A stretch of DNA of 42,605 nucleotides from a virus (IMGVR_UViG_3300023313_000015:1-42605); one strand, 5' to 3'; shown: positions 1,573 to 29,223, numbered from the stretch's first letter. Made by a program: numbers and translations. Notes: a model not told the origin generated them from the sequence alone.

Positions 1573-2190
1573 TTATTTTAAGTATAATTTAGGGGCAGTA
1601 TCCTCTTCATCAGAGTTACTAGCTTTAGGTGGACTGAGGACATCATCAACGCTGACTCCCTTCTCCTCGACCTTCTCACCTTTCTTAACCACATGGTATA
1701 TATCTATACGTTCTGCGAACCACAACGTCAGCTCGTCTATAGATGCCGATAGAGGTTTATCCTCTTTGAACAAGTCGAATTTACGACAAGTATTTAGTAC
1801 ATGCCAAGTCCCTACAAAATAGTTTATAGGTAGGGATGCTTTATAAGTCTTTGTACTATTTCTATGTAGTGTGGCCATAAGGGTAAGAAGGTCAAAAGCT
1901 GCATCCTGCTCATTAGGAGGAACCAATCTCTGATCTAGTAACTCTTTTATACAAGTCCATATTGCCATTATCTGCCCTCCAGTAGTCTCCCACTCAATAA
2001 CATCTCGGAATACAGGCTTACCAGCATCATCTAATTTAATATCTCCCTTCTCATCAGTCACAATAGCAGACTCTAAACCACTCCCTCTAACAGCAGACTC
2101 TAACTTATTAGTAAGAGGGTTTAATTTATAAGGATTGTACTTCTTAGTAGCTCTATCCTTAGCTTTTCTCAACTTTACTACTTTACCCAT
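1573..2190 (-). CDS. Unknown protein at the end of the replication operon
   Basis: The start at 2190 is preferred over 2205 because GGGAG lies 9 bases upstream. It overlaps the end of the J-domain gene by 13 bases. The 205-aa product begins with a strongly basic segment (MGKVVKLRKAKDRATKKYN), has a mixed central domain with several Trp residues (EWETTGGQIMAIWTCIKELL) and ends in an acidic tail. I do not recognise a family. It is the last gene of the leftward operon and converges on the plus-strand lipoprotein gene. A role alongside the J-domain protein is possible only by position. Confidence 0.75.
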   Translation of the reverse strand: MGKVVKLRKAKDRATKKYNPYKLNPLTNKLESAVRGSGLESAIVTDEKGDIKLDDAGKPVFRDVIEWETTGGQIMAIWTCIKELLDQRLVPPNEQDAAFDLLTLMATLHRNSTKTYKASLPINYFVGTWHVLNTCRKFDLFKEDKPLSASIDELTLWFAERIDIYHVVKKGEKVEEKGVSVDDVLSPPKASNSDEEDTAPKLYLK

Positions 2191-2771
2191 TCTACTTTCT
2201 CCCATTCTGTATTAGTATCTACTATAGTCTCATAATAAGATTCCTCTAACATATCCAGCATAATTTGCTGAGTATCTAGAGCCTCCTCTATATTCTCTGC
2301 TCTTAATTCCATAGAGCTAATAGTCTGGCTTATAGAGGGCTGTATAAAATCAGCTTTTTTTAGCCTAGTACTAACTATCTTCATCTTTCCTATATCATGC
2401 TCCACCTCTTCTAAATCAGAGTGCATAGATATAGATCTCTCGTTTATCTCGGATCTAACCATTACGACAAGATCCGTATGATTGGCCATGAAGGTCTTTC
2501 CCGAGGTAATCATATCGAAAAGCTTAGCTAGGTTCTGAATAGCCTTATCCTCTAAACTTGGGATATTGTCTACTTCCTCACCTCTGTCATACATAGCTCT
2601 AAGCTTCTTGTCGGACAGTATCTTATAAGCCTTATCTATAACTTGAAACTCTTTCTCATCCCCTCCAGCATCAGGATGGTGAAGCTTAGCTAACTTATGA
2701 TAAGCCTTTTTTATGTCCTTATCTGAGCAGCCAGCCTCTAATCCTAATACCTCGTACTTATCTTTCTCCAT
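2178..2771 (-). CDS. J-domain (DnaJ-like) protein
   Basis: Residues 4-65 form a J domain: DKYEVLGLEAGCSDKDIKKA, then the HPD motif at residues 32-34, then the helix with YKILSDKKLRAMYD. J domains stimulate the ATPase of Hsp70 (DnaK) through HPD. There is no Gly/Phe-rich region or zinc finger; residues 70-197 are a helical, partly coiled region, so this is a class III type protein that likely recruits host DnaK to a particular target. Its start overlaps the stop of the zincin gene (TAATG). By context the target may be replisome assembly, as lambda uses DnaJ/DnaK, but this is inference. Confidence 0.88.
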   Translation of the reverse strand: MEKDKYEVLGLEAGCSDKDIKKAYHKLAKLHHPDAGGDEKEFQVIDKAYKILSDKKLRAMYDRGEEVDNIPSLEDKAIQNLAKLFDMITSGKTFMANHTDLVVMVRSEINERSISMHSDLEEVEHDIGKMKIVSTRLKKADFIQPSISQTISSMELRAENIEEALDTQQIMLDMLEESYYETIVDTNTEWEKVEWVK

Positions 2772-3447: not shown

Positions 3448-3999
3448 CTAAAATCCGAAGTTATTAAATTCTTCTTTCGGTGTTTCTTCAGCACTTATAA
3501 ACCCTTTAAACATATCTGAAGCTGAAGCTTTAGAGGTTAGAGCTTCATTAGAAGATACCTTAAGCACAGCTCGTAAGTTAAGAGCTACCCCTTTATTTCC
3601 ATCTACATCATAAGCCCAAGCCTCTACAGAGAACCGAACATTATCTCCAGCTTTAATACCATCTCTAGTAATAAAGACGTCATCTCCGCCTTTAACTTTA
3701 CGTACAACGGGTATAGCAAACTTAGTCCCTGCATTTAGAATTTTCATCCCTTTCATATGAGGATGCTCTTCATGGCTAGACTCTTTAGTATCTTTTACTG
3801 GAAGCTTCATTCCTTCAGGTAAACCCTTTGGCCATTTAGCATTAGCCACTTCCATACACATAGCCTGTAGCTGCTTAAAATCCTCATCTTTAGGAATTAG
3901 GATAGCCGCTGAGTATTTATCTTTCTTAGTGTCTGGCTCAAATAAATACCTGTCAAAAATTAATCTTCCCTCTGGTGTAACTACTCTTTCTTCGCTCAT
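3448..3999 (-). CDS. DUF2815-type ssDNA-binding protein
   Basis: The 183-aa product fits the DUF2815 family, which replaces SSB in many phages: TPEGRLIFDRYLFEPDTKKD, the KYSAAILIPKDE strand, FAIPVVRKVKGGDD, and NLRAVLKV near the C terminus. It should coat single-stranded DNA during replication. Its C terminus ends EEFNNFGF, an acidic and aromatic tail with a final Phe as in bacterial SSB. Four other genes in this operon end in similar tails (see findings). It lies downstream of the nuclease gene with a 41-base gap and upstream of the XRE gene. Confidence 0.8.
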   Translation of the reverse strand: MSEERVVTPEGRLIFDRYLFEPDTKKDKYSAAILIPKDEDFKQLQAMCMEVANAKWPKGLPEGMKLPVKDTKESSHEEHPHMKGMKILNAGTKFAIPVVRKVKGGDDVFITRDGIKAGDNVRFSVEAWAYDVDGNKGVALNLRAVLKVSSNEALTSKASASDMFKGFISAEETPKEEFNNFGF

Positions 4000-4040
4000 T
4001 TTTAATCCTTAGTTTCGTTATTCGCTTTATTGCGAGCGTG

Positions 4041-5201
4041 TTAGAAATCCATGTCCTCATAGATCACTGTATTAAAATCATTAACTGCATTATCAATTAT
4101 TACTTCTGGTCGTTTATCTTCTTCTCTGGCCATGGTGTTCTTTGGCTCCGGTTTGAATAGAAACTCACCCACCTCTTTCTTTCCGAATTTCTTCTCAAGA
4201 GCACCAATTCCGAGCAACTTTTGCTGGTATATATCTTCTCCGAACGCCATCTTAAGTTCCACTTCGCTTTGGACTTTCCTATTCGATCTTCCTTTAACGA
4301 GCTTGTATCCTTTGACATATTCCCCATTCTCCAACCTATGCATAGCATATGCACTGACAGAATCTAACCACTTTTTAATTCCGTCAGCATGGTCTAGAAT
4401 ATTCATTAAAGTTCTCTCGTCCATAACATCAGGCTTAGGCAAGCTATTCTCAGTCTTCACCTCTTCTATCCCAAAGTCCATAATGGCCAAAGCCTGAGCG
4501 TCTTTTCTCTGCTCTGGGCATATACCTTTAGCTGGACAAAAGAAGCAATGGCTTCCTGACTCAAGTTTAGGATTCTCAGCCCTAGTAGCATCGACTGCCT
4601 CTCCTAAAACATCCCCTATAGCCTCTAATTCGACCATAGATATAGTATAAGATTTTATAGGGTCTTGGATTCTAGGCTGTACTATAGTCATCTTAACTTT
4701 CTTGAAATCCTCCCCGTGGGCACATCCAAGAGCATAGTAAGCTAATTGGATGTTATCCTTAGCAAATACTTCCTTTCCCTTTCCATACTTAAGGTCTATT
4801 ACCTCTAACTCTCCCATAAACTCCATTATGATAGCGTCATTACTTCCGTGCATCCCCTCTCGTATGAAGTCCAAGTTGAAAGATTCTTCTATAATCAAGT
4901 CTTTATTTGATCCTTTAGCAGCCTCTAGTACGTAATCTACATAAGTTTGGACGTATTCCGCCATCTCCTCATCTACAGTATGGCCTTCCCACTCCCGACC
5001 TATATAATCAGAACACTTGGTAGTTCCTAGTAAAGCCGCTTCTGCCAATTCATGCGCACAGCTCCCGATCTCAGCATGTACCGAACTTTTTTGCGGGGGG
5101 GCTATCTCTATAAGGTTATTAGACCCCGGACAATTCATCCATCTATCTGCACTGGAGGCACCTACCACCGAGTGCCCTCTGTTTGCTTGTTTGGTAGACA
5201 T
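4041..5201 (-). CDS. DUF2800 Cas4-like PD-(D/E)XK nuclease
   Basis: The 386-aa protein matches DUF2800: SSADRWMNCPGSNNL near the start, GSCAHELAEA (H50, E51), D122 in GSNDAIIMEF, then DLK at 136-138 and Q152 in the QLAYY motif, which together form a RecB-type nuclease site. One cysteine near the N terminus (C24) and three later (C219, C222, C228) are placed as in the 4Fe-4S cluster of Cas4 and AddB nucleases. It probably processes DNA ends during replication or recombination. The protein ends YEDMDF, one of the shared phenylalanine tails. It is TAATG- or end-overlapped with the 154-aa gene upstream. Confidence 0.85.
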   Translation of the reverse strand: MSTKQANRGHSVVGASSADRWMNCPGSNNLIEIAPPQKSSVHAEIGSCAHELAEAALLGTTKCSDYIGREWEGHTVDEEMAEYVQTYVDYVLEAAKGSNKDLIIEESFNLDFIREGMHGSNDAIIMEFMGELEVIDLKYGKGKEVFAKDNIQLAYYALGCAHGEDFKKVKMTIVQPRIQDPIKSYTISMVELEAIGDVLGEAVDATRAENPKLESGSHCFFCPAKGICPEQRKDAQALAIMDFGIEEVKTENSLPKPDVMDERTLMNILDHADGIKKWLDSVSAYAMHRLENGEYVKGYKLVKGRSNRKVQSEVELKMAFGEDIYQQKLLGIGALEKKFGKKEVGEFLFKPEPKNTMAREEDKRPEVIIDNAVNDFNTVIYEDMDF

Positions 5202-5665
5202 TATGCTGCTACCAATTTCTTAGCTAGTTCAGTAAATGTCTTAGCATCTGCTGCTTTCAAAGAAGGAACTCCACAAACTTCTATAATTAAAGCCTTAACT
5301 TTATCCCCTGAGTTTAGACGACCCGCTGTCTCTCTACATAGAACCATCATCTCTTCTACAGTAAGAGGGTTAACAACCTCTACCTCTTTTACTTCTTTTG
5401 TAACTTTCTTTTTAGTTGCTTTTTTCTTTGCTTTCTTCTCAATTTTAGGCTCGTCAATAACTTCTTTTGTTTTAACTTCATCATTAACCTTCTTTGCCGT
5501 AGCTAGAGGCTTACCTTCTAGAGCTACAGATAAAGACCCCATAACTTTATTATAAGCTGTGTCGAAATCATCATTCTCAGTTAGGCTAGCTCCTAGCTTT
5601 ACCTCGAAATGCTCGTAATTCCCTAGATTTTTTCGCCTCATAATTTCAATAGTGTTAATAAACAT
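5201..5665 (-). CDS. Lys-rich replication-operon protein of unknown function
   Basis: The ATG at 5665 is preferred because GGGAGG lies six bases upstream; the ATG at 5695 overlaps the helicase gene and has no such site. The 154-aa product has an N-terminal domain (residues 1-55), a Lys/Glu-rich linker around 75-100 (KKAKKKATKKKVTKEVKEVE) and a small C-terminal helical domain ending KTFTELAKKLVAA. That last domain resembles a short module (KALI...G...L...F..L) found at the end of several phage DNA-metabolism proteins. It lacks the phenylalanine tail seen in its neighbours. Function unknown. Confidence 0.75.
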   Translation of the reverse strand: MFINTIEIMRRKNLGNYEHFEVKLGASLTENDDFDTAYNKVMGSLSVALEGKPLATAKKVNDEVKTKEVIDEPKIEKKAKKKATKKKVTKEVKEVEVVNPLTVEEMMVLCRETAGRLNSGDKVKALIIEVCGVPSLKAADAKTFTELAKKLVAA

Positions 5666-5678
5666 TTGTTCCTCCCAG

Positions 5679-6962
5679 TTATAATATTTGTTCAATCACT
5701 TTCATTTTGGATGTTAGACTTTTGGTGATCATTTTGTCAACATGACTTCCACATATTTTATGTATTCTACATGTATTTTTTTGTCCTATTCTATGAATCC
5801 GCTTACTTGCCTGAGCATTATCTGCTTGGACGTATGACATATCATTGAATATCAGATCCGTTGCGGCTGTTAGAGTAATTCCAGTAGATGCAGCACCAAT
5901 AGTGGCAACCAGATAGTCCAGCTTACCAGATTGGAACTCATTAATAATTTCATGTCTACTGGAGATGCTCGTCTGGCCAGTAATAACCCCTGCTTTTTCA
6001 AGCTTTCCTGATATGAGATGAACAGGATCAACATGGTCACTGAAAATAACCACGGGCTTTCCGGTTTCTTCAAATATATTTCTAGCATAATTAACAGTAA
6101 AAGGAGCTTTTGCCAGAGCTGAGCCGCTCTTGATAGCCATAATATGGTCATCAACTTTTCCTTGGTGCTTCGAGTACTCTTCCAAACTTGAATCATCGTA
6201 CTTATAGTGAACATCTACATACCTCTCTAATAGCTCAGGAAGGTCTAGGACATCTTCCGTTAATCTTCTTATGTATTTACCTTCAAAAAATGTCCTAAGC
6301 TCTATGGCGTTCTTAAGCCCCTCAAACTTGCGTACTTCTACTTCCCGACCTCTAACATATATCTTATATACTTTCTCATAGGAGAAATTATTAGAGAATG
6401 AGTACTGAGTACGGTAATGCTCACATATATTTAATCCGTTGGTTCCATTCGGACAATAGGACAGTATCTTAAGTAAACTAAAGAACTCCTCTACTCGGTT
6501 CTTAACAGGAGTCCCTGTAAGGAGAGTTAGGTTCTTAGGTCTATTTCTCTCTAGGAACTCATGAAATAGCCCTGTTCTCTTGGCTTGTAGGTTCTTAAGC
6601 ATATGAGCTTCATCTACTATGACATGACCCGCTTGCTCAAATAAGAACTCACACTTGGCCAATCTCTCGTAATTAACAATTATAACCTTATACTTACTAG
6701 CGGTGCCTATATCTGCCGCTCTTTCTACGATAAGGATATTTTTCTCCTCTAGATCAGTAAACTTTAAGAACTCAGCTTTCCAGTTATATTTTAGAAAAGC
6801 AGGACACACTACTAGAGTCTTGTACCCCGTAGCTGCGGATACTCCAATGGCCGATAAGGTCTTTCCAACCCCCATCTCACTACCTATCAAAAAGTACTTA
6901 TGCTTCAAGCAAAATTTAACATCCTCTGCCTGATGAGGAAATAGTTTAGCAGTTAGCTTCAT
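5679..6962 (-). CDS. SNF2-family DNA helicase/translocase
   Basis: This 427-aa SF2 protein has the SNF2 motif set: EMGVGKT (29-35, Walker A), VDEAH (116-120), LTGTPVKN (148-155), and RIHRIGQ (388-394, motif VI with the RIGQ signature). Such compact phage SNF2-like helicases are common beside PolA and DUF2800 genes and are thought to help replication or recombination, perhaps by remodelling forks. Its ATG overlaps the stop of the 102-aa gene (TAATG), so the two are translationally coupled. It does not end in the shared phenylalanine tail. Confidence 0.92.
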   Translation of the reverse strand: MKLTAKLFPHQAEDVKFCLKHKYFLIGSEMGVGKTLSAIGVSAATGYKTLVVCPAFLKYNWKAEFLKFTDLEEKNILIVERAADIGTASKYKVIIVNYERLAKCEFLFEQAGHVIVDEAHMLKNLQAKRTGLFHEFLERNRPKNLTLLTGTPVKNRVEEFFSLLKILSYCPNGTNGLNICEHYRTQYSFSNNFSYEKVYKIYVRGREVEVRKFEGLKNAIELRTFFEGKYIRRLTEDVLDLPELLERYVDVHYKYDDSSLEEYSKHQGKVDDHIMAIKSGSALAKAPFTVNYARNIFEETGKPVVIFSDHVDPVHLISGKLEKAGVITGQTSISSRHEIINEFQSGKLDYLVATIGAASTGITLTAATDLIFNDMSYVQADNAQASKRIHRIGQKNTCRIHKICGSHVDKMITKSLTSKMKVIEQIL

Positions 6963-7270
6963 TAAAACTCCATATCCTCAAACTCGGTATACTCTTTGTT
7001 CATCTCCTCAACCGTGGCGTACATCACTTCAGAGTACTCCTCAGGCATAATAGACAATGCTCTTTTCACACATTCGATATAAATATGGCTCTCAACTAAT
7101 ATCCCGGGAAGCCTACTTCTAGAGTAAGTAACATCATCCATATTCAAGCAATGATGTATCTGATCTATCTCTTCAGCCACTCTTGCGAAATTGAAAGCTA
7201 ACTTACCTAGAAGCTCCCAGTGACACTCTTTGTCTTTCATGTTTTGCAATAAAGCATTTAATTCTTTCAT
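6962..7270 (-). CDS. Small replication-operon protein with phenylalanine tail
   Basis: The 102-aa product is predicted to be entirely helical (ELLGKLAFNFARVAEEIDQI, then IYIECVKRALSIM) and I recognise no family. It is squeezed between the DNA polymerase and helicase genes with TAATG overlaps on both sides, so it is made in step with them. It ends YTEFEDMEF, nearly the same tail as the Cas4-like nuclease (YEDMDF). I infer a replisome accessory or adaptor role; a weak likeness to MazG-type helices was considered but the metal-binding glutamates are not evident. Confidence 0.75.
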   Translation of the reverse strand: MKELNALLQNMKDKECHWELLGKLAFNFARVAEEIDQIHHCLNMDDVTYSRSRLPGILVESHIYIECVKRALSIMPEEYSEVMYATVEEMNKEYTEFEDMEF

Positions 7271-9369
7271 TAAAATTCCTCCTGTGAATAATCCATCTTC
7301 CCAAAGTATTGTTTAAATCTATCGTATTCCTCTACTCCCCTAGGATCAATATAGATCTGCTGCTGTTTTATAGGAAGGATATACCCCATATATGTATCTT
7401 CATAGTACTTAGCCTCCGAAGGGTAACTAGGGCTCCAAATATCAGCGTCTAGCCTAACCGTAGCCCTATCTTGAACATCTTTAGGGAAGTAAAATCTAAA
7501 GGCTTTATCCATACATTCCGCTAGTGTCCGTATCGCCTTGTCGTCCCCTACATTAAACTCTATATACAAAGCATCGTGCAGCGTGTAGATAACGTCCAAT
7601 CCGCTATCCTGAGCCAATTGTACAGCCTTACGCATTATACAACTTCCCATGCCTTGAACAGGAAAATTTCCCGTACTTCTAAAATTATCGTTATCGCCCC
7701 AGAGATACCAATGATCTTCAAGCTTAAGGTACCCCATAGTTTTATACTTTATGATCATATCAGCTTTCCACTGCCAAAATACGGAGTAAGCTTCCTTATG
7801 CTTGTCTATCCATTCCTGCGCTTCCTCTTCACTAACTTTTCTACCAAACTTTTCGCTAAGGTCTGTGGCAAGACCATACTTAGACATATCGTAAGATAGC
7901 CCCAAAACAACGGCTTTGCAGTTATCTCTTTCTCTCTTATGGCTTGTTTTAGTGGCATCGGCTGGTATGTATCCAATCGCCTTTCCAAATGCGAGATAAA
8001 CATCTCCAGACGCATACGCCTCAAGCATCTTGCTATCTCCGGATAGTAGGGCCGCCAATAGGAATTCCTGTGAGGCAAAGTCAATACCACATATAGCTCG
8101 TCCATTCTGTGGACATATAAGAGATCGCATCCAAGCAGCCTTAAGCGGAATGAATGAAGTTGCACTAGGCTGAGATCGAGCCGATTGGGCTCCATAAATA
8201 CCGAAATATGGACGAACTCTCCCATCTTCACCTACATTGTCCCAGAACTTCTTTTTACTTTTTCCTGTACTTGGAGAAAATCCATTGAGGCCTTGCTTTA
8301 ATTTTAAATACCTTTGCATCTGAGCTAGGAAGTTTCCCCTAGGGTATTTATGATTATATGATATAGGCTTAGAAAATGCCTTGATAGACAAGGAGTCTGC
8401 TCCTCCGTCCGTCTTAGTCCAGCCCTTATACTTATTAGAGTCCTTCCATTTCTTGACTAAAGACCGAGTGTGTATTTGATTCCATGATAGGTCTAGAGGT
8501 CTAGATTTAGTTTTGGCCCTGAAGATCCCATCTCCATCAGAATCCTTAGAGAACTGAGAGCTAACATCCCTCTGCACCTCCCATAAGATATTTCCTACTT
8601 GATTAGAGAAGTTCCTAGTCCTACCTACATCTATAGGATACCCAAGTCTCTCCATCATAGCAGTACGACAAGCATACTCTGCTCTAGACTTGACCCCTAA
8701 AGATAACTCATCCATTTCATCTTCATAGCCTAATAAGCTAGCATACTCCTCATAAAACTCTGCCCACATAGGCTCTAGGTGGGCGACATCTGAAGCACAG
8801 TAGTTCATTATACTTAGCTTTTCTTTCTCTAACCTTTCTATATCTTCCAGTTTTCCGCTATTACACGCTATGATTATGTCTCTACTAGCCTTCTTAAAAT
8901 CCGTATCTATAACTAATCCCAAGGTTTTATATACAGCGGCTCCCATTCCATATTCTTGCTTGGAGTAATTAGCCTCCCTATCCTCTTCCTCAGTCCTCTT
9001 CCATTTAGACTTGGGGGGATTGGTAGTCTTAATTATCCCATTAATAAGCTGCGCTCCGTAAGAGTAATTATGATTGTGATTAGATAAGTGCCTATACTCT
9101 AAATATAAGTCTATCCATCTGAATAGCAAAGGGTCTAACCCGATGGATAGAAAGGCACTAGCTTCTGCTACTACACTGTAAGATAGGAATATATAACCAT
9201 CCTTATGTAATTTATTTATATCGGCTTTTAAATCCTCTATAGAGTTCCCTTCTCCACGATGAGTCCAATAGTTGTGAGTGGCGTCATCATAGCGTATGGA
9301 ACAGCATACTATCTCTAGGTCTTTCTCAGCCGTATCATAGTATTCAAAATCTATCGAAGCTAGTTTCAT
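7270..9369 (-). CDS. polA: Family A DNA polymerase with 3'-5' exonuclease
   Basis: The 699-aa protein has an N-terminal DEDDy-type exonuclease (D7, E9; probable second motif with E69; Y190xxxD194) and a C-terminal PolI polymerase. Motif A is DFASQE at 430-435, motif B runs from R481 through K485 to Y493, and motif C is LHDA at 597-600. The residue matching E. coli Phe762 is Leu489, and the Glu after the motif C aspartate is Ala600. It has no 5'-3' exonuclease domain. The start overlaps the FlbD-like gene by ATGA. The C terminus, DYSQEEF, carries the shared tail. It is the replicative polymerase of the phage. Confidence 0.95.
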   Translation of the reverse strand: MKLASIDFEYYDTAEKDLEIVCCSIRYDDATHNYWTHRGEGNSIEDLKADINKLHKDGYIFLSYSVVAEASAFLSIGLDPLLFRWIDLYLEYRHLSNHNHNYSYGAQLINGIIKTTNPPKSKWKRTEEEDREANYSKQEYGMGAAVYKTLGLVIDTDFKKASRDIIIACNSGKLEDIERLEKEKLSIMNYCASDVAHLEPMWAEFYEEYASLLGYEDEMDELSLGVKSRAEYACRTAMMERLGYPIDVGRTRNFSNQVGNILWEVQRDVSSQFSKDSDGDGIFRAKTKSRPLDLSWNQIHTRSLVKKWKDSNKYKGWTKTDGGADSLSIKAFSKPISYNHKYPRGNFLAQMQRYLKLKQGLNGFSPSTGKSKKKFWDNVGEDGRVRPYFGIYGAQSARSQPSATSFIPLKAAWMRSLICPQNGRAICGIDFASQEFLLAALLSGDSKMLEAYASGDVYLAFGKAIGYIPADATKTSHKRERDNCKAVVLGLSYDMSKYGLATDLSEKFGRKVSEEEAQEWIDKHKEAYSVFWQWKADMIIKYKTMGYLKLEDHWYLWGDNDNFRSTGNFPVQGMGSCIMRKAVQLAQDSGLDVIYTLHDALYIEFNVGDDKAIRTLAECMDKAFRFYFPKDVQDRATVRLDADIWSPSYPSEAKYYEDTYMGYILPIKQQQIYIDPRGVEEYDRFKQYFGKMDYSQEEF

Positions 9370-9611
9370 ACCTCAACCTTTTTAAATATTTCTAAAATAT
9401 CGTCCACGGACTCTTCTACTAGAATAGAGTATTTATTAGATATAACTACCTTAACTTGTTTTTTGTCATTAACTGTGAGGTAATCAATCTCTTTCTTGTT
9501 TAAGTACATAACGGATATTTCATTCCTAGGTATAGATCCCTCCATACGAGTTAGTCTAATAAACCCACAAGCGGCCATAGTATCTTTTTTATATTCCTTG
9601 CTAGTTCCCAT
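9366..9611 (-). CDS. FlbD/SwrD-like small protein
   Basis: The start at 9611 follows the stop of the helicase gene by one base; the longer frame from 9686 lies inside that gene. The 81-aa product has the layout of the FlbD (PF06289-like) family: FIRLTRMEG, then a strand pattern NEISVMYLNKKEIDYLTVND, then VKVVISNKYSILVEESVDDI. In bacteria these small beta-rich proteins sit in flagellar operons; this family is distinct from the Caulobacter sigma54 activator with the same name. In a phage replication operon it may be a small adaptor. The likeness is by eye and moderately sure. Confidence 0.6.
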   Translation of the reverse strand: MGTSKEYKKDTMAACGFIRLTRMEGSIPRNEISVMYLNKKEIDYLTVNDKKQVKVVISNKYSILVEESVDDILEIFKKVEV

Positions 9612-9612
9612 A

Positions 9613-11229
9613 TTAAAACCCCATTTCTTTATAGCTGGTTGAACTCTTCTCTTTCTTCTCTTTCTTATCTTTAAGGTATTTATCAAAAGGTACTAGGTTC
9701 TCTATCTTCCCTTTGTATTTTATATATCCTAATTTATCTCCATCTCTATCTAGATGGTACTTTAGGAATTCTGATACCTTCTTTGAAGAAAGCTTAGAAG
9801 TCCCTTGTTTACACACGGAGTCTCTAACAGTAGACATGGCCACCTCTTCTCCTTTCCTGACTATAAAGTCCACCACTATAAACTGCCAAGAATATAGGTT
9901 TTTCTCTACCGTTTCATAAAATAGGTCGGACTTAAAAGCCTTCCCCGGGGAGAACTCAGGGCTAAATTTCCCACTATCCCCTAGATACAGGATGTAATCC
10001 CCTATACTCTTTATAAACGAAGGATCCTTCTCGGTCTTATGCCTTAAAGCCTCCTCCCACTCGATACCTAACTCTTTAGCTATATCCCCCTCTTGCCGAC
10101 ATAAAGGGATACTAAATCTCCTATCTTGATACTCGATCCTATTAACAGCATCCTTAGGATTGTTGGAAATGGCTAAAGAGGCGAAGTTAGTGTAGTTACC
10201 TTTGGTGGGTATATGCTTCTCTTGTATAGGTATCTCATCGTTAGCGTATAATTTTAGCTGCGACAGATTAGACTCATCAATATCATGCTCATCGAAATAA
10301 CATAGTCTCCTATCTTTCAATTCCGAGTTAAACTTATTAGACCAAAAGGATAAATCTATAGTTACGTAATTATCAACCCCTACCAATCTCCTAGCTATCC
10401 TAAAGAAGGAGCCTTTCCCTACTCCCTTTCCCCCAATAAGATGAAGGTAGGTCTGATTTCTGGAAGTGAGCATCGTATACAGCCAGAATAATACGTATTG
10501 GATGGACTCTACGTCTTTAACAAATAGATGATTCAATAGCTCTACAAACTCTTTAGGTAGCTTAGGGGCTTCTATGGCCTTCTCTCTCCTCCAATCTGGA
10601 GTTATATGAGAGTTAGCATGGAATATGTCAGGAACTCCGTCCCATTCATCCCTGTAGTTATCTCTAGGGTCAGAGGGATTATACTCCACTATCCCTAAAA
10701 TCTGCTCCCCTAATACCTCTCCTTTGGACTTAGCATCCAAAGGAGACTCCCTCAGTTGTTTCTTCCACTGATCGTAGTCAAAATCCCTCTTAATCCTTCC
10801 TGTTTTCTTATTCATCATATATGTATGGGGAGAAATAGCATCCCTAATGGCTACATAGGATTGAAATTGGATACTGCCTAATATAGCCCCATCCCTAGAT
10901 ATTCCCACCTCTTCTCTACGGACATCCTCTAAGTGAGCTTGGAGTTTGACAAATAATCTAGAAGCTATCTCTGCCTCTGCTTTAGCTGGATGACACCTAA
11001 GGTCGTCTATCATATCTATTCTAAGATTCTTATAAGCTTGCAGATCCTCCCCCGACAAGAAAGTATCTAGGGAGTCAATAGAGCTAGCAAAAAAGCTTTG
11101 AAAGGCTTTACGAGATGTGTTAGCTCCTGACAATCTTATGTTGTCTCTAGCTCCATATGATATTTTGTGGTGTTTACTTACCCATTGACCTAGGGCTCGA
11201 TATGCTTTTTCTGTGTTGTTTGATTTCAT
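9613..11229 (-). CDS. SF3-type replicative helicase (DUF5906-like)
   Basis: The 538-aa protein carries a D5/VapE-like helicase core: Walker A GGKGVGKG (266-273), Walker B RLCYFDEHD (308-316), the sensor strand SLAISNNP (351-358) and the arginine pair in YQDRRFSIP (368-375). It is the first gene of the leftward operon, behind GAGG at a slightly long spacing from the ATG. The N-terminal 200 residues show no archaeo-eukaryotic primase motifs that I can see, so it may be helicase only or hold a diverged primase. It ends SYKEMGF, one of the shared phenylalanine tails. Confidence 0.85.
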   Translation of the reverse strand: MKSNNTEKAYRALGQWVSKHHKISYGARDNIRLSGANTSRKAFQSFFASSIDSLDTFLSGEDLQAYKNLRIDMIDDLRCHPAKAEAEIASRLFVKLQAHLEDVRREEVGISRDGAILGSIQFQSYVAIRDAISPHTYMMNKKTGRIKRDFDYDQWKKQLRESPLDAKSKGEVLGEQILGIVEYNPSDPRDNYRDEWDGVPDIFHANSHITPDWRREKAIEAPKLPKEFVELLNHLFVKDVESIQYVLFWLYTMLTSRNQTYLHLIGGKGVGKGSFFRIARRLVGVDNYVTIDLSFWSNKFNSELKDRRLCYFDEHDIDESNLSQLKLYANDEIPIQEKHIPTKGNYTNFASLAISNNPKDAVNRIEYQDRRFSIPLCRQEGDIAKELGIEWEEALRHKTEKDPSFIKSIGDYILYLGDSGKFSPEFSPGKAFKSDLFYETVEKNLYSWQFIVVDFIVRKGEEVAMSTVRDSVCKQGTSKLSSKKVSEFLKYHLDRDGDKLGYIKYKGKIENLVPFDKYLKDKKEKKEKSSTSYKEMGF

Positions 11230-11603: not shown

Positions 11604-11996
11604 ATGCTATACGATGTCAAAATGGATAATATATCTAACAGGGATAAAGCTTTAGTTAAGAATTCTGTTAGGTCTGCTATTAGGAAATCTTTTAGTAGGT
11701 CTGACCATTATAAAGGGTTTCTTAAGTCTAGGCGAATTGAATGGAGAAGCGGTAAGCGTAGAAGAGTATCTTATGAGTGCCAAATATGCCTTGTAAACCA
11801 TCCCAGTACTAATATTAATGTAGATCATAAGGTTCCTCTAGGTAAAGGCGTGTATGGAGGCTTAGAGGACGCTGATAGTTTTAGTGCTTTGGTGTATTGT
11901 TCTTGGGATAACCTCCAAATCCTTTGCCGAGAGTGTCATAAGCTTAAAACTAAGGAGGAGCAAAAAGCTCCTTCTTTCCACAATGCTATTTTTTAA
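11604..11996 (+). CDS. HNH endonuclease, free-standing
   Basis: The 130-aa protein has a basic N terminus and a C-terminal HNH domain: ECQICLVNHPSTNINVDHKV, then DNLQILCRECHKLKTKEEQK. Cys pairs frame the domain as a zinc-binding HNH of the McrA/5-methylcytosine type fold. It is a lone plus-strand gene between two leftward operons and its 3' end overlaps the convergent membrane-protein gene by 11 bases, which suits an inserted homing endonuclease. The start could also be 11622; neither start has a good ribosome site. Confidence 0.82.
   Translation: MLYDVKMDNISNRDKALVKNSVRSAIRKSFSRSDHYKGFLKSRRIEWRSGKRRRVSYECQICLVNHPSTNINVDHKVPLGKGVYGGLEDADSFSALVYCSWDNLQILCRECHKLKTKEEQKAPSFHNAIF
11952..11976. 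terminator. Ten-pair hairpin at the convergent gene ends
   Basis: AAGGAGGAGC pairs with GCTCCTTCTT around five A residues, ten pairs with one G-T. It lies in the last codons of the HNH gene. In the leftward direction it lies just past the end of the membrane-protein gene and is followed by a short T-rich stretch, so it may terminate the leftward accessory operon. The T-tract is weak. Confidence 0.4.
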
Positions 11997-14976: not shown

Positions 14977-15738
14977 TCAGTATCTTCGCCACTTTTCTTT
15001 AAATAGCGTTTTGTTTATTCCTAAATTTACAGCGGCTCTATATACCTTTGGCTCTTTAGATATAAGATCCTTAGCGCACACATACTTACTAGACAGCTCT
15101 CTCACCTTAGTTTCATTCCAATAACTGCCGTGATGCCTTCCTGTATCAGGATTTGACCCCTCCATGTGAGAGCACACAGTACTTAGTATACCTTCTCGAC
15201 TGGCTTCCGAATAGGCTGAAGGCGAGTATTTCTTAAATTCAGCTCTATTTGTATAGTTGCTGGCCTCCTCTTGAAGGTTAGGCATACTCCATTTTTTCAT
15301 AGTGGGAGCCCCTAGTTCTCCCCCGACTGTTTTATTTAAAACGTTCCATCCCTCCGAACGGTATTTTAGAATAGTAGAGACTTCCCGTGAAGAGGCTTCC
15401 GTGGGAGATATACCCCTTTTAAGAATATGGAATTTGCACGGAATATCTCGGTACTTTTTACCTATTTCTTTATACCCGTGTGCTTTTAATCTTTCTTTTA
15501 TATTACAGGATATTCCGACATATACCGACCTATCATCAAACTCAAATGAATATAGAGTTCTCGCCTTACCATTGGATATTTTCAACATATGTCCTGTTAT
15601 CTTTGGAATAAGTTTGTGATATTTAGCAGCAGAATAAGCCTTGGAGCTTAGTTTTCTAAAGTCCCTCTTAGTTGAAAACTTAAGAGCTTCTTTATGTAAT
15701 CGCTCCAATGTCCAATACCCCGCAGGATTTTCACTCAT
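14977..15738 (-). CDS. GIY-YIG homing endonuclease with DNA-binding repeats
   Basis: The 253-aa protein has a GIY-YIG type core at about 62-90 (LYSFEFDDRSVYVGISCNIK, then ERLKAHGYKEIG), with E near 114 and N near 133 as in the family. Around it are three copies of a roughly 45-residue unit with W near the start, a conserved EA, and AYSAA or AYSEA in the middle (near 8-48, 149-192 and 206-250), which look like DNA-binding repeats. It sits between two virion genes, overlapping the upstream one by 8 bases, and is most likely a selfish homing nuclease. Confidence 0.85.
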   Translation of the reverse strand: MSENPAGYWTLERLHKEALKFSTKRDFRKLSSKAYSAAKYHKLIPKITGHMLKISNGKARTLYSFEFDDRSVYVGISCNIKERLKAHGYKEIGKKYRDIPCKFHILKRGISPTEASSREVSTILKYRSEGWNVLNKTVGGELGAPTMKKWSMPNLQEEASNYTNRAEFKKYSPSAYSEASREGILSTVCSHMEGSNPDTGRHHGSYWNETKVRELSSKYVCAKDLISKEPKVYRAAVNLGINKTLFKEKWRRY

Positions 15739-16052: not shown

Positions 16053-16490
16053 CTAGATCCTTACTGTTCGTTGTCCTTTATTAATTAACATCTCGGTAGC
16101 ACTAAACGGCTGCCCTACACTTAGTATGATACTTCCTGAGGCTGTCGGAGGAGCATCTGTAATCAATCCCGCTACAGAATCCGATAGAAAGTACACCTTT
16201 GCCACGTCTAGCCCTGTAAACACGGATAGAGAGACTCCTAGTACTCTTATATCGCATAAAGTCGATGAGCTTTTAGCCTCTACTACCCCAATTACGTTAG
16301 AGTTAGCTAGTGAATTGGCTTGAGCGTTTACAGCAAAGCCCCCAACATCCATGATAACAGCAGCCCCTACAAAGACAGAAGCTAGACATGTAGTGTCAGC
16401 TAGAACTACATTAGCATTGCCGCTAGGCAAGTCTGATATATCTAATTGAGCCTTCTTGCCCGTTACTGCGTCCCGTACGATTAACTTCAT
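16053..16490 (-). CDS. Virion-type protein, DUF2190-like
   Basis: The 145-aa beta-rich protein resembles a common phage decoration or tail module: VLADTTCLASVFVGAAVIMD, then NVIGVVEAKSSS, then VYFLSDSVAGLITDAPPTAS and a final VGQPFSATEMLINKG. The same order of motifs appears in the next gene (16487-17077), so the two are paralogues. ATGA coupling at 16487-16490 shows they are translated together. They probably form two related parts of a tail appendage or capsid decoration. Confidence 0.7.
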   Translation of the reverse strand: MKLIVRDAVTGKKAQLDISDLPSGNANVVLADTTCLASVFVGAAVIMDVGGFAVNAQANSLANSNVIGVVEAKSSSTLCDIRVLGVSLSVFTGLDVAKVYFLSDSVAGLITDAPPTASGSIILSVGQPFSATEMLINKGQRTVRI

Positions 16491-17077
16491 AGTATCTCTT
16501 CAGGCTCCTCAATATTTATAAATATAGATCCAACGCCCAATCCTTGCCCAATTTGAGTAACAAACTCTCCGACAATTACGGTTGGAGTATTAGTTATAGC
16601 ACCGGAAGTCGATAGAAACAAAGGTTCATTTATAGTAAACAGGAAACTAGGGTTTAAGGGAACTATCCCAAAAGTAAGTATCCTAATAGTCTCCCCTGTC
16701 AGTTTAGCCTCTAGAGCTATACCAATGGCCTTGGAATTGGCGTATGTGTCATCAGACGTTAAGCCCACATTAGTATCTGATACCAATCTCACCATATCAA
16801 ACGCTGCTATATCCTCATTCGCTATCGACTCAAACACCAGTTTAGCAGCCTCAACACTAGGAGGAGGCTGGATTACTGTTAGATTAGATAGCTCTACGGT
16901 TATATCTGAGGGCTTTGATACCTCTACAGTTATTGTATCCGGCTGAGCTATCTCTACAATGTTCTGAGATATAGCTATATCTATACTAGCAGGAGATATT
17001 TCTACAATCTCCACGCTATTACTAGTTTGTTGGATAGTAACAGAGATAACGCTCTGTTGTATGGTTACCTCTGACAT
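16487..17077 (-). CDS. Virion-type protein, paralogue with N-terminal beta repeats
   Basis: The first 70 residues are short beta repeats rich in I, V, S and T (VTIQQ twice, then VEIVEISPASIDIAISQNIV and ITVEVSKPSDITVELSN). A proline hinge (IQPPPS) leads to a domain of about 120 aa with the same motif order as the 145-aa neighbour: KAIGIALEAKLTGETIRILT, FLSTSGAITNTP and a final IGQGLGVGSIFINI. This suggests a duplication in which one copy gained a stalk-like N terminus. It fits a short tail appendage. It overlaps both neighbouring genes. Confidence 0.7.
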   Translation of the reverse strand: MSEVTIQQSVISVTIQQTSNSVEIVEISPASIDIAISQNIVEIAQPDTITVEVSKPSDITVELSNLTVIQPPPSVEAAKLVFESIANEDIAAFDMVRLVSDTNVGLTSDDTYANSKAIGIALEAKLTGETIRILTFGIVPLNPSFLFTINEPLFLSTSGAITNTPTVIVGEFVTQIGQGLGVGSIFINIEEPEEIL

Positions 17078-17952: not shown

Positions 17953-18648
17953 TTACAGCTCCTCTATTAAGTCGATTAGTATATTTGATAGCTCTATTTG
18001 CCTTTTTTCTATAGAAGAAAAAGCAGCAGCGGCAGAAGTAGCAGAATGCCGATAAGAATTAGAAGCAGCCGAAACAGCAATAGAGGCAGAATAAGCAGAA
18101 ACAGTAGAAGCAGAATAAGTAGAATACGCATAATCAGTAGCAGCAACAGAGGCAACAGTAGATGCAGAATAGGAAGCAATCTCTAATAATTCCCTATCCC
18201 CTATCAATAAAGCATCTATTATAAACAATTGTGCGGCATATATGTCACTATATTTTTCTTTGTCATAATCATTAAAGGTTGATTCTATAATCTTAATCTT
18301 AAATGCTACTTCTATATCCTTTAAATTAACACCTACTTTTATTGCTTCCATGGAACGTAGCGGCCAGAGCTTTGATTCTTTATCAGGTAACTCTTCAAAT
18401 ATCGTATCTTGAACAATAGCGAACCACTCGGGTAAGCCTAATAACTTTTCATATGATTCGTGGTCATTATAATCATATGATAAGCCTTTGAGCCTATTCG
18501 CTGATTCAATAGAGCATCCAACTGCGCACCCTTTCCCCGTTTCATCATTAAAGTATTCACCTTTTATAAGGTTATCTAGCTTCATATGCTTTTTTAACTC
18601 TGTTACTAATTCTTTTTTCGTTAGTATTGTATTTGTAAATGCTTTCAT
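17953..18648 (-). CDS. Phage protein with Ala/Ser/Tyr-rich C terminus
   Basis: The first 150 residues resemble a phage hypothetical family I have seen often: LIKGEYFNDETGKGCAVGCS, ESYEKLLGLPEWFAIVQDTI, and WPLRSMEAIKVGVNL. Residues about 158-215 are low-complexity, with repeats of the type SAST and YSAS. The codons of that stretch are dominated by GCT, TCT and TAT so the DNA is itself repetitive. The conserved Cys pair in GKGCAVGC and the LPEW motif suggest a folded enzyme-like or metal-binding domain, but the function is unknown. Confidence 0.75.
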   Translation of the reverse strand: MKAFTNTILTKKELVTELKKHMKLDNLIKGEYFNDETGKGCAVGCSIESANRLKGLSYDYNDHESYEKLLGLPEWFAIVQDTIFEELPDKESKLWPLRSMEAIKVGVNLKDIEVAFKIKIIESTFNDYDKEKYSDIYAAQLFIIDALLIGDRELLEIASYSASTVASVAATDYAYSTYSASTVSAYSASIAVSAASNSYRHSATSAAAAFSSIEKRQIELSNILIDLIEEL

Positions 18649-20490: not shown

Positions 20491-20563
20491 TAATGTTTAC
20501 AAAAAATAATGGATGCACTAATGTTTTATGTGTGGTGTATTATATAGAGAGGAGTTTATGGGT
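20491..20563 (+). promoter_or_regulatory. Leader and promoter-like region of the late operon
   Basis: TTTACA and TAATGT with a 17-base gap (near 20496-20524) and an AT-rich TATTATA near 20539-20545 precede the small terminase gene. GAGAGGAG at 20547-20554 is its ribosome site. The promoter match is moderate; a phage-encoded activator may be needed for late expression. Confidence 0.4.
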
Positions 20564-21115
20564 ATGGCTGCGAAGAAATATGATGGTGCGGTAGGTAGTA
20601 GAATAGTTGAACTTGCTTCGTTGGGTTATAGTTTAGCGGATAGTGCTAATTTACTAAATGTTCATCGGAATACTCTTACTAGATGGATTAAGAAATTCGA
20701 CCTTACTAGTAGAATGGCATCGGCTGAAACTGACTTGATGCGATCTACTATAAAGAGAGGTTTGAAGGCGTTAAGTGAAGGTGCTTCATCTACCGAAACT
20801 ATAAGAGAAACTATAGAAGATGATGGCGAGGGTAATATCGTTAAAGTAACCGAGAAGGTTAGACGCTTAGCACCAAACGAGAAGGCTATACAGATACTAG
20901 CTCAACGCTATGCAAAAGAGTTTAGTAAGTCAGAGCTTGAGGAAATTGGTAAGACATTAAACATATCACTGAACACTAGCAACATGAGTATCAGAGAACT
21001 CAACGCAGTACCATCACCACTAGGCTCTATTGATATTAGTAGAAAAGAAGAACTAAAATTAGACCCCCCTACTAGAGATCTCAGTGATGATGTAGGTAGT
21101 GTGACCAACTCATGA
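20564..21115 (+). CDS. terS: Terminase small subunit
   Basis: The start at 20564 puts nine bases between GGAG and ATG; the ATG at 20558 is too close. The 183-aa product begins MAAKKYDGAVGSRIVELASL and has a helix-turn-helix (SLADSANLLNVHRNTLTRWI) as in phage TerS proteins, a helical middle that could oligomerise and a polar C-terminal tail (DLSDDVGSVTNS). It would bind the packaging site and feed the large subunit. It sits two genes before the large subunit, with an endolysin between them. Its last codons lie in a duplicated sequence. Confidence 0.8.
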   Translation: MAAKKYDGAVGSRIVELASLGYSLADSANLLNVHRNTLTRWIKKFDLTSRMASAETDLMRSTIKRGLKALSEGASSTETIRETIEDDGEGNIVKVTEKVRRLAPNEKAIQILAQRYAKEFSKSELEEIGKTLNISLNTSNMSIRELNAVPSPLGSIDISRKEELKLDPPTRDLSDDVGSVTNS

Positions 21116-26086: not shown

Positions 26087-27340
26087 ATGGAATTAGACAC
26101 ATTTGAGGACGGAGCCTATACAGACGGCCCCGAGGACGACAGCACATTTGAATCTGATGGAGGCTCTACGGATGGAGAAGAAAGGGAAGAAGGACAGACT
26201 GACGAAACAGCATCAGTACAAACCGAAGAAACCGAAAGTATCGACAGTGACTCCCAAGTTAATCTCCTCGACGAAAAGGAAGAGTCTGGAACAAAAGAAG
26301 AAGCGAAAGACACAGAGAAGAAGTCTGATAAGTCAGATGAGGAAGCTAAAGGATCAGATGAAGACTCCGAATCTAAATCCGATAACAAGGACGATGCTGG
26401 AAAAAATGATGGAGAGATTGCAGCAGATGTACGCACTATTAAAGCCTTCAGTGACGGAAAACAGTACGAAATCCCAGAAAACGCAGAAATAAAGACAAAA
26501 GTAGATGGCAAGTGGGAGAAAGTTACCCTAACTGACCTAAAAGATAATTATTCGGGTAAAGTCGCCTACGATGAGAAGTTCTCATCTATGAATGAAGAAA
26601 GAAAAGCCTTCTCTGAGGAGAGAGACACCTACGCTAAGGAGATCTCAGGAATTAAAGAACATTTCGTAAACATCCGTCAATTGACCGATGCAGGAATGAA
26701 AGGCGAAGTAGACCCTCTTAGCTCAGTGAATTATTTGCTTGACCTGATGGGAGTCAATACTCTAGACTACAATAAGGCGATGTATAATCACATGGCTGAA
26801 GAGTTTGATATTTACTCCGACATGACTGAAAATGAACGAGAAAGCTATTGGACAAAAAAGGAAAATACGTATCTTGTTAAAAAGCAAGAGTCCTTAACGA
26901 AGAATCAAGGTGAGCAGCAAGCCCAAGCGGAACTGAACACTAGGATTACTAACTTAAGGGAGACTCACAGCGTTAGTGAAGAAGATTACGTTTCCGCAGA
27001 GCAAGACTTGAAAGCTGAGAACTTCGAGAATATTACTCCCGAAGCAGTTGTAGAGGCAGCTAGGTTGAAACCGTTGTTGAGTCAAGCAGACACCGCAATA
27101 GAGCCCTACCTAGACCAACTCTCCGATGACGAAGCTTATGACTTATCTATTGAGATTGCGACAACTGTGTTCAACAATCCCAATATGTCATTTGATCAAG
27201 TTAAGCGGGCTCTAGCTGAAACCTACGAGGTCGAGGATATAGTATCTGAGATCGAGAAAAAAGTAGGAAAAGCCCCAGAGCCTTATAAAACAACGAGTGC
27301 AACCAGCAATTATGCTGACCTCGACATGTTCGAGGATTAA
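26087..27340 (+). CDS. Scaffolding protein
   Basis: The 417-aa product sits between portal and major capsid, the standard scaffold position, and has the composition: the first 110 residues are highly acidic (EESGTKEEAKDTEKKSDKSD), the middle is helical and coiled-coil, and the C terminus ends in SNYADLDMFED. The acidic first third also opens long frames on other strands and frames, which are shadows. It would guide capsid assembly and then leave. Identification is by position and composition. Confidence 0.75.
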   Translation: MELDTFEDGAYTDGPEDDSTFESDGGSTDGEEREEGQTDETASVQTEETESIDSDSQVNLLDEKEESGTKEEAKDTEKKSDKSDEEAKGSDEDSESKSDNKDDAGKNDGEIAADVRTIKAFSDGKQYEIPENAEIKTKVDGKWEKVTLTDLKDNYSGKVAYDEKFSSMNEERKAFSEERDTYAKEISGIKEHFVNIRQLTDAGMKGEVDPLSSVNYLLDLMGVNTLDYNKAMYNHMAEEFDIYSDMTENERESYWTKKENTYLVKKQESLTKNQGEQQAQAELNTRITNLRETHSVSEEDYVSAEQDLKAENFENITPEAVVEAARLKPLLSQADTAIEPYLDQLSDDEAYDLSIEIATTVFNNPNMSFDQVKRALAETYEVEDIVSEIEKKVGKAPEPYKTTSATSNYADLDMFED

Positions 27341-28670: not shown

Positions 28671-28703
28671 ATAGTGTTTTCATAGTACAAAGGAGAACAC
28701 TAT
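28671..28703 (+). promoter_or_regulatory. Hairpin covering the ribosome site and start of the HNH gene
   Basis: Bases 28671-28681 pair with 28693-28703 (eleven pairs, one G-T) around an 11-base loop. The right arm contains half of the ribosome site GGAG and the first bases of the ATG at 28702. The structure would block translation until it is melted or read through from a different start, as known for T4 homing endonuclease genes. Confidence 0.65.
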
Positions 28704-29223
28704 GCCATACAAATGCCCTATTAAAAGAAGAGAGGCCTCTAAGAAGTCAGCTAAGGTGTACAGAGAGAAGAACAGAGATAGAATTAATATTATCGCTCTC
28801 GGGAGATACCATAAGTTCTATAAAAACTGTGAAGCCTCTAAAGAAAAGAGGAAAGAGTATTTAAAGGGTTGGAGATTAGCTAATCAATCTTATATAGTAG
28901 AGTACAGAGCCACTAACGAAGATCAGAAACAAAAAGCTAGGATTCGTGCAAGTAAGTGGCAAAAAGATAATGTAGGAAGGTGTCGTGCTAGAAATTCCCT
29001 AAGGAAACAAAGGGTCAAGATAGCCACTCCAGACTGGGTTTCTAGAAAAGAGTTAGGGTATGTGTATGAGAAAGCGTATCAGATGGAGAAGAGGAGTGGA
29101 CTAAAACACCACGTAGACCATATGGTTCCTTTAGTACATCCAGATGTTTGTGGACTTCATGTACCTTGGAATTTAAATGCGATTCCTGCACTCGATAACC
29201 TTAGAAAGGGTAATCGGATATAG
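28702..29223 (+). CDS. HNH homing endonuclease
   Basis: The 173-aa protein is Lys/Arg-rich at the N terminus and ends with an HNH motif: HHVDHMVPLVHPDVCGLHVP, then NLNAIPALDNLRKGNRI, the layout of a phage Hef-like or HNH homing nuclease. It sits between the major capsid and a decoration protein gene, a typical homing site. Its start lies in a hairpin (28671-28703) that hides the ribosome site. It is likely selfish and not needed for growth. Confidence 0.85.
   Translation: MPYKCPIKRREASKKSAKVYREKNRDRINIIALGRYHKFYKNCEASKEKRKEYLKGWRLANQSYIVEYRATNEDQKQKARIRASKWQKDNVGRCRARNSLRKQRVKIATPDWVSRKELGYVYEKAYQMEKRSGLKHHVDHMVPLVHPDVCGLHVPWNLNAIPALDNLRKGNRI

Follow-up and report, generated by a model that had tools for sequence, protein, structure and literature searches.

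The replication genes of the virus record IMGVR_UViG_3300023313_000015, a circular sequence of 42,605 bp with a 127-bp end repeat (the window, by which the whole of this stretch is meant), raise the question of why several different proteins should finish in the same way. The genes form a block on the minus strand which, in the order of transcription, encodes an SF3/DUF5906 helicase, an FlbD-like protein, a DNA polymerase, a 102-residue protein, an SNF2-type helicase, a Lys-rich protein, a DUF2800 exonuclease and a DUF2815 single-stranded DNA-binding protein (SSB) (Table 1). The original prediction held that five of these carry an acidic stretch closed by a final Phe, that the three others lack it, and that no other protein of the genome ends in this manner. 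All five open reading frames (ORFs) were found, with stop codons at 3448, 4041, 6962, 7270 and 9613, and the endings of the SNF2, Lys-rich and FlbD-like proteins are tail-less as described. The sole other Phe-ending product among the tiled ORFs of the window belongs to an HNH ORF (11604-11996, ..SFHNAIF) and has no acidic residues nearby; a final Phe occurs in 5 of the 8 block ORFs vs 1 of the 52 others (hypergeometric P = 6e-5, given 6 of 60 overall). Acidic endings with a last Leu are present on two more ORFs (16487-17077, ..EEPEEIL, and 17953-18648, ..DLIEEL), so that the acidic part alone is not unique to the block and only the Phe is, and the terminase-like small protein (20528-21115) bears no such end. 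Based on the comparisons given below, we are highly confident that the tail works as a docking tag common to a set of DNA-transaction proteins.

Conservation of the tails was first evident in the nearest complete relative (G001, 42,461 bp), which shares with the window ~61% identity in the terminase, 61% in the polymerase, 51% in the exonuclease, 44% in the SSB and 31% in the SF3 helicase. The tails came through this homologue comparison, which had been proposed as a check: four of the five persist while the bodies of the proteins diverge to 31-61% identity. The exonuclease ends in ..ENFDNLTF, the polymerase in LGELVF and the SF3 helicase in ..INLDDLEF; the SSB ends in ..EEAGFSFT, that is, one residue beyond the Phe. 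The slot beside the polymerase is occupied in G001 by a 75-residue protein that aligns poorly with the 102-residue protein of the window except in the last six positions (FDDMEF and FEDMEF, respectively). The SNF2 and Lys-rich proteins and the products of the flanking genes are tail-less in both genomes.

A scan of IMG/VR with the polymerase as single protein gave no matches, and more distant relatives were collected by terminase and then polymerase alignments, resulting in over 40 loci across which profiles of the polymerase, SF3 helicase, SNF2 helicase, SSB, exonuclease and Lys-rich protein were run. Phages with DUF2800 and DUF2815 genes that had been found first were discarded as too distant and lacking the tag set, and so was the polymerase of a Silvanigrella phage, which is distant and has no tail. 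The loci fall into two groups, tagged and untagged. In the tagged group an acidic tail with a hydrophobic last residue is found on most of the polymerases, SF3 helicases, exonucleases and SSBs; in the untagged group the polymerase ends within ~5 residues of the conserved F-K/S-K-Y-F motif and the exonuclease lacks the tag, while the SSB retains its acidic tail. The polymerase extension, which in the window comprises 10 residues after FKQYF and ends in ..SQEEF, is essentially limited to tagged genomes. The 21 tagged genomes contributed 77 tails, of which 96% close with L, I, V, M or F (position -1) and 57% have a hydrophobic residue just before it (position -2); acidic residues are enriched over positions -3 to -7, at 35-55%. 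Phe is the last residue in 10 of the 77, and the expectation that a final Phe would be the conserved feature did not hold: Phe is the local version of the window and G001, and I, V or L take its place elsewhere. A tail on SNF2 was seen in 0 of 20 and 0 of 15 genomes examined, which rules this helicase out as a bearer of the tag (0/35).

The most telling pattern is the agreement of endings inside one genome. The last residue was identical in 80 of 108 within-genome protein pairs vs 48.4 expected from shuffling the endings of each family among genomes (p = 2e-4, the lowest value the test can return); this p value holds for positions -1 and -2, and the result was unchanged when one genome per close pair was kept (66 of 87 pairs identical). 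No such agreement was seen in the other group, in genomes lacking the gene for the Lys-rich protein (9 of 84 pairs vs 8.4 expected). The window and G001 use F endings, and two other genomes (L057 and L041) carry I on every tagged protein found. In L066 the polymerase, exonuclease and terminase small subunit (TerS) end in SLLDEV, NLLDEI and NLLDIV; in L055 the polymerase, SSB, DUF5906 protein and a 154-residue protein end in EEEFVL, DGEFVL, EEGFVL and EEEFIL, and five proteins of L072 end in EDL or DDL. An ending with two or more acidic residues and then the polymerase's own last residue was found in 28 of 42 partners, 1 of 15 SNF2 proteins and 47 of 784 other ORFs.

The tail persists even where the proteins bearing it have been replaced. 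The DUF2815 SSB and the DUF2800 exonuclease are encoded in the window, G001, L041 and L057, whereas in most other tagged genomes they are replaced by another small SSB-like protein and another PDDEXK exonuclease (DUF3799-type or other), and both sets are tagged. The alternative SSB-like protein is predicted by AlphaFold to have OB topology (pLDDT 87), though its fold matches, of which many are SSBs, are weak (E = 0.02 at best). In some relatives, judging by their C-terminal sequences, the tag is not confined to replication and is also seen on packaging, resolvase and regulatory proteins, including the TerS of seven genomes (L019, L026, L039, L046, L049, L066 and L071), a RusA-like resolvase (L045), helix-turn-helix regulators (L046, L049 and L071) and a protein recognized by sequence inspection as a cytosine methylase (L137).

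The proposal of a docking peptide that binds a common receptor has good support: the tails are conserved, they outlast the exchange of the genes that carry them, and their last residues covary within genomes. The tag would be a short linear motif in which several acidic residues lead up to a terminal bulky hydrophobic residue with a free carboxylate; by sequence, it is present on the majority of the DNA-transaction proteins in this family of uncultured phages. Its last letters differ between phages and match within one, suggesting one common socket for all tagged proteins; if these letters have co-evolved with a receptor pocket, as the covariation implies, they are expected to be common within a genome and different between genomes. 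All tagged proteins of one phage would then dock in the same pocket of a single receptor, which is probably phage-encoded and common to them.

As regards the identity of this receptor, the suggestion that it is one of the tail-less operon proteins remains plausible, in the sense that the gene for the Lys-rich protein shows a matching pattern of presence and absence. When 15 whole tagged genomes were compared family by family with 8 whole untagged ones, the Lys-rich protein ranked first of all gene families at separating them, being present in 14 of 15 (15 of 15 if a fusion in L055 is counted) vs 0 of 8, and over 35 genomes the presence of its gene was associated with the polymerase tail (counts 19/1/1/14; Fisher test, 9e-8). 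The natural fusion (L055, 17426-19186) has the Lys-rich linker and C-domain attached to a PDDEXK exonuclease, which bears no tail of its own. Three records checked afterwards agree with the association: the locus of L019 had been cut before the Lys-rich gene, which is present in the full record; L058 has neither the Lys-rich gene nor a polymerase tail, its SF3 helicase nonetheless ending in DEDDGI; and L137, found via the Lys-rich N-domain, has a tailed polymerase (DLELF). The AlphaFold model of the Lys-rich protein comprises an N-terminal beta-beta-alpha unit, a disordered linker rich in K, A and E, and a three-helix C-domain (pLDDT ~80 for the domains). A Foldseek search with this protein gave no match below E = 0.5, and ZitR-type regulators (E ~3e-4) were rejected as homologues, as the matches fall on the Lys-rich linker plus the helical region and were judged compositional. 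In the window protein, the C-domain is related to the uncharacterised family phrog_408, whose genes in other phages lie immediately upstream of those for DUF2800 exonucleases; proteins of this type may be partners of the exonuclease or SSB.

Based on this co-occurrence, the gene order and the one natural fusion, the Lys-rich protein could serve as a flexible basic hub on phage DNA, bringing together the polymerase, helicase, exonuclease and SSB and, in relatives, the terminase and resolvase as well. Several observations weigh against this assignment. On the tree the co-occurrence amounts to three independent contrasts, only one of them on well-supported branches, and it could consequently reflect lineage history. 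In L143 and L145, whose polymerase is distant, a relative of the Lys-rich protein occurs without a polymerase tail (a helicase search of these two records and L137 gave no matches, without a positive control), and L056 has a short hydrophobic polymerase end and no Lys-rich gene. The Lys-rich protein is itself tagged in L039, L045, L046, L049 and L072, which would require self-docking or another receptor; the acidic tail of the SSB persists where the Lys-rich gene is absent, so that another partner must exist; and in three tagged genomes (L049, L071 and L137) the exonuclease is untagged. The Lys-rich protein is thus put forward as a tentative candidate, its chance of being the receptor falling slightly short of even, and the explanation taken as a whole (a docking tag, a common phage receptor and, most likely, the Lys-rich protein in that role) appears from these sequence comparisons to be evenly poised.

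By analogy, the closest precedent for the working of such an arrangement appears to be phage T4, in which gp43, gp55 and gp33 bind the clamp gp45 through similar and interchangeable hydrophobic and acidic C-termini (PMC2988020). As among the gp45 clients, a hydrophobic/acidic C-terminus is common here to several proteins including the polymerase; unlike in T4, the polymerase is of family A, the SSB, exonuclease, helicase and, in relatives, TerS are tagged too, the tag sequence is phage-specific and searches for beta- and PCNA-type clamps were negative. The beta-clamp profile (PF02767) had no match in 21 records including the window, and the PCNA profile (PF00705) none in 18 relatives, a set from which the window itself was absent, in both cases with working controls; the gp45-type profile (PF02916) gave no match either, though no positive control responded.

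The alternative with the best support is modelled on phage T7, where gp4 binds, through its acidic tails, to basic patches on the polymerase gp5 (PMC12593628). The tails would dock on the universal replisome core, that is, on basic patches of the polymerase, the OB-fold groove of the SSB or SNF2, and the Lys-rich gene would be a passenger of the lineage. The window does resemble T7 in having a replisome with a family A polymerase and acidic tails on the gp2.5-like SSB and the helicase; in addition, the SSB tail is found in tagged and untagged genomes alike, the polymerase and SNF2 are universal, and some Lys-rich proteins bear the tag themselves. However, the polymerase and exonuclease are also tagged here, and relatives add packaging, resolvase and regulator proteins, unlike the gp2.5 and gp4 tails, whose receptor is gp5-thioredoxin. 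A tagged polymerase would need to bind its own kind, and the polymerase and exonuclease tags are present or absent in step with the Lys-rich gene, although the polymerase and SNF2 themselves are found throughout; we regard this explanation as unlikely.

It had also been suggested that host SSB-binding proteins could be the receptor, and more generally a host pocket might be hijacked, either the sliding clamp or a reader of the SSB C-terminus. Acidic and hydrophobic C-termini are indeed read by the host partners of SSB, the host clamp could serve phages in which no beta- or PCNA-type clamp was found, and a 110-residue protein of L044 has a true SSB-like end (FDDIPF). The window version of the tag resembles the bacterial SSB tip (..DDDIPF) in its acidic stretch and terminal Phe, but it differs in that the last residue varies among phages, the tag is not confined to SSB and the Pro at -2 is missing from all 77 tails, which led membership in the bacterial SSB motif to be rejected. 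Membership in the bacterial beta-clamp motif (QLxLF type) was rejected likewise, with Gln in 0% of the tails at -5 and 3% at -6. The bacterial SSB-tip and clamp motifs are near-uniform, in contrast to tags that switch among F, I, V and L, and a host receptor is consequently a poorer fit and, in our opinion, improbable.

The C-terminus might instead govern stability or degradation by a host protease, on proteins that have to be removed together. Such a signal could likewise affect several unrelated proteins and be host-specific; it is very improbable, given that the tag occurs on early replication and packaging proteins and never on SNF2 of the same operon, and that acidic ends are usually not degrons. 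That the tails are an artefact of base composition or of the next gene's Shine-Dalgarno sequence can practically be dismissed, for although the polymerase-tail codons CAG-GAG-GAA of the window overlap the AGGAGG of the following gene, the hydrophobic end is kept in 12 of 13 members lying more than 30 nt from the next gene, so that codon overlap is no general explanation, and this spacing, together with the rarity of polymerase-type endings in other ORFs given above, largely refutes an origin in Shine-Dalgarno or operon overlap, SNF2 being equally embedded in the operon and never meeting the tail definition.

Returning to the docking tag and its phage-encoded receptor, a bolder version is conceivable, although we would not favour it: a clamp-less "toolbelt" in which the Lys-rich hub would organise replication, recombination and packaging by reading a phage-specific C-terminal password. 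The password, carried by the polymerase, helicase, exonuclease, SSB, TerS, resolvase and regulators, would change in concert on all of them and be grafted onto newly acquired, unrelated replication genes. Acidic docking tails have so far been known from one or a few proteins at a time, as in T7, T4 and bacterial SSB. In the present family a single tag covers much of the DNA-handling machinery of a phage, with last residues that shift together between phages, and no description of a shared tag of this kind was found in the open-access literature searched. The concerted shift would be a natural record of co-evolution with a receptor, which might be found by simple peptide binding. The tag also offers a means of listing, from sequence only, the members of a phage DNA-processing complex, including small proteins such as the 102-residue one, and suggests a route by which unrelated SSB and exonuclease genes may be swapped into a working replisome, namely by acquiring the password.

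The genes of the block are listed in Table 1. The assignment of the SSB to the DUF2815/Enc34 family is based on a score of 68.2 bits against the PF10991 profile, above the curated cut-off of 26. ORF6 of Enc34, an SSB of the same family, has an acidic, partly disordered C-terminus (PMC5686142); that work deals with the SSB alone and is not known to describe a tag common to other proteins. The FlbD-like protein likely starts at an ATG near 9611, directly after the helicase stop.

Table 1. Products of the minus-strand replication block of the window, with family matches and C-terminal residues.
Product	Coordinates	Strand	Family match	C-terminus
ssDNA-binding protein, DUF2815/Enc34 type, gp2.5-like	3448..3999	-	PF10991, 9e-19; PHROG gp2.5-like, 1e-25	tail, ..PKEEFNNFGF
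DUF2800 PD-(D/E)XK exonuclease	4041..5201	-	PF10926, 4e-80	tail, ..VIYEDMDF
Lys-rich protein, candidate receptor/hub	5201..5695	-		tail-less, ..KKLVAA
SNF2-type helicase	5679..6962	-	PF00176, 3e-22	tail-less, ..VIEQIL
102-residue protein	6962..7270	-	no family match	tail, ..TEFEDMEF
Family A DNA polymerase	7270..9369	-	PF00476, 3e-18	tail, ..DYSQEEF
FlbD-like small protein	9366..9686	-	no family match	tail-less, ..FKKVEV
SF3 (DUF5906) helicase/primase	9613..11229	-	PF19263, 1e-11	tail, ..TSYKEMGF

The same operon encodes a DnaJ-domain protein (2178-2771, minus strand; PF00226, 1e-19) that is kept in G001. Three ORFs elsewhere in the window are likely free-standing nuclease genes: the plus-strand ORF that ends in Phe, an HNH nuclease by PHROG match, and, by inspection, a GIY-YIG-like ORF (14977-15738, minus strand) and an HNH-like ORF (28702-29223, plus strand). 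A scaffold-like structural protein (26087-27340, plus strand) has an acidic and aromatic C-terminus (..NYADLDMFED), with counterparts in L012 (..YESFDDFEY) and L011 (..SFDDFDFGNNYY), which is probably unrelated to the replication tag. The L044 protein with the canonical bacterial SSB tip is encoded at 6434-6766, in a genome whose replication proteins carry a different tag. Regarding the distribution of the family, members occur in contigs binned as Flavobacteriaceae and Candidatus Dependentiae (L039, L040 and L001), and the Silvanigrella phage mentioned above holds a distant polymerase.

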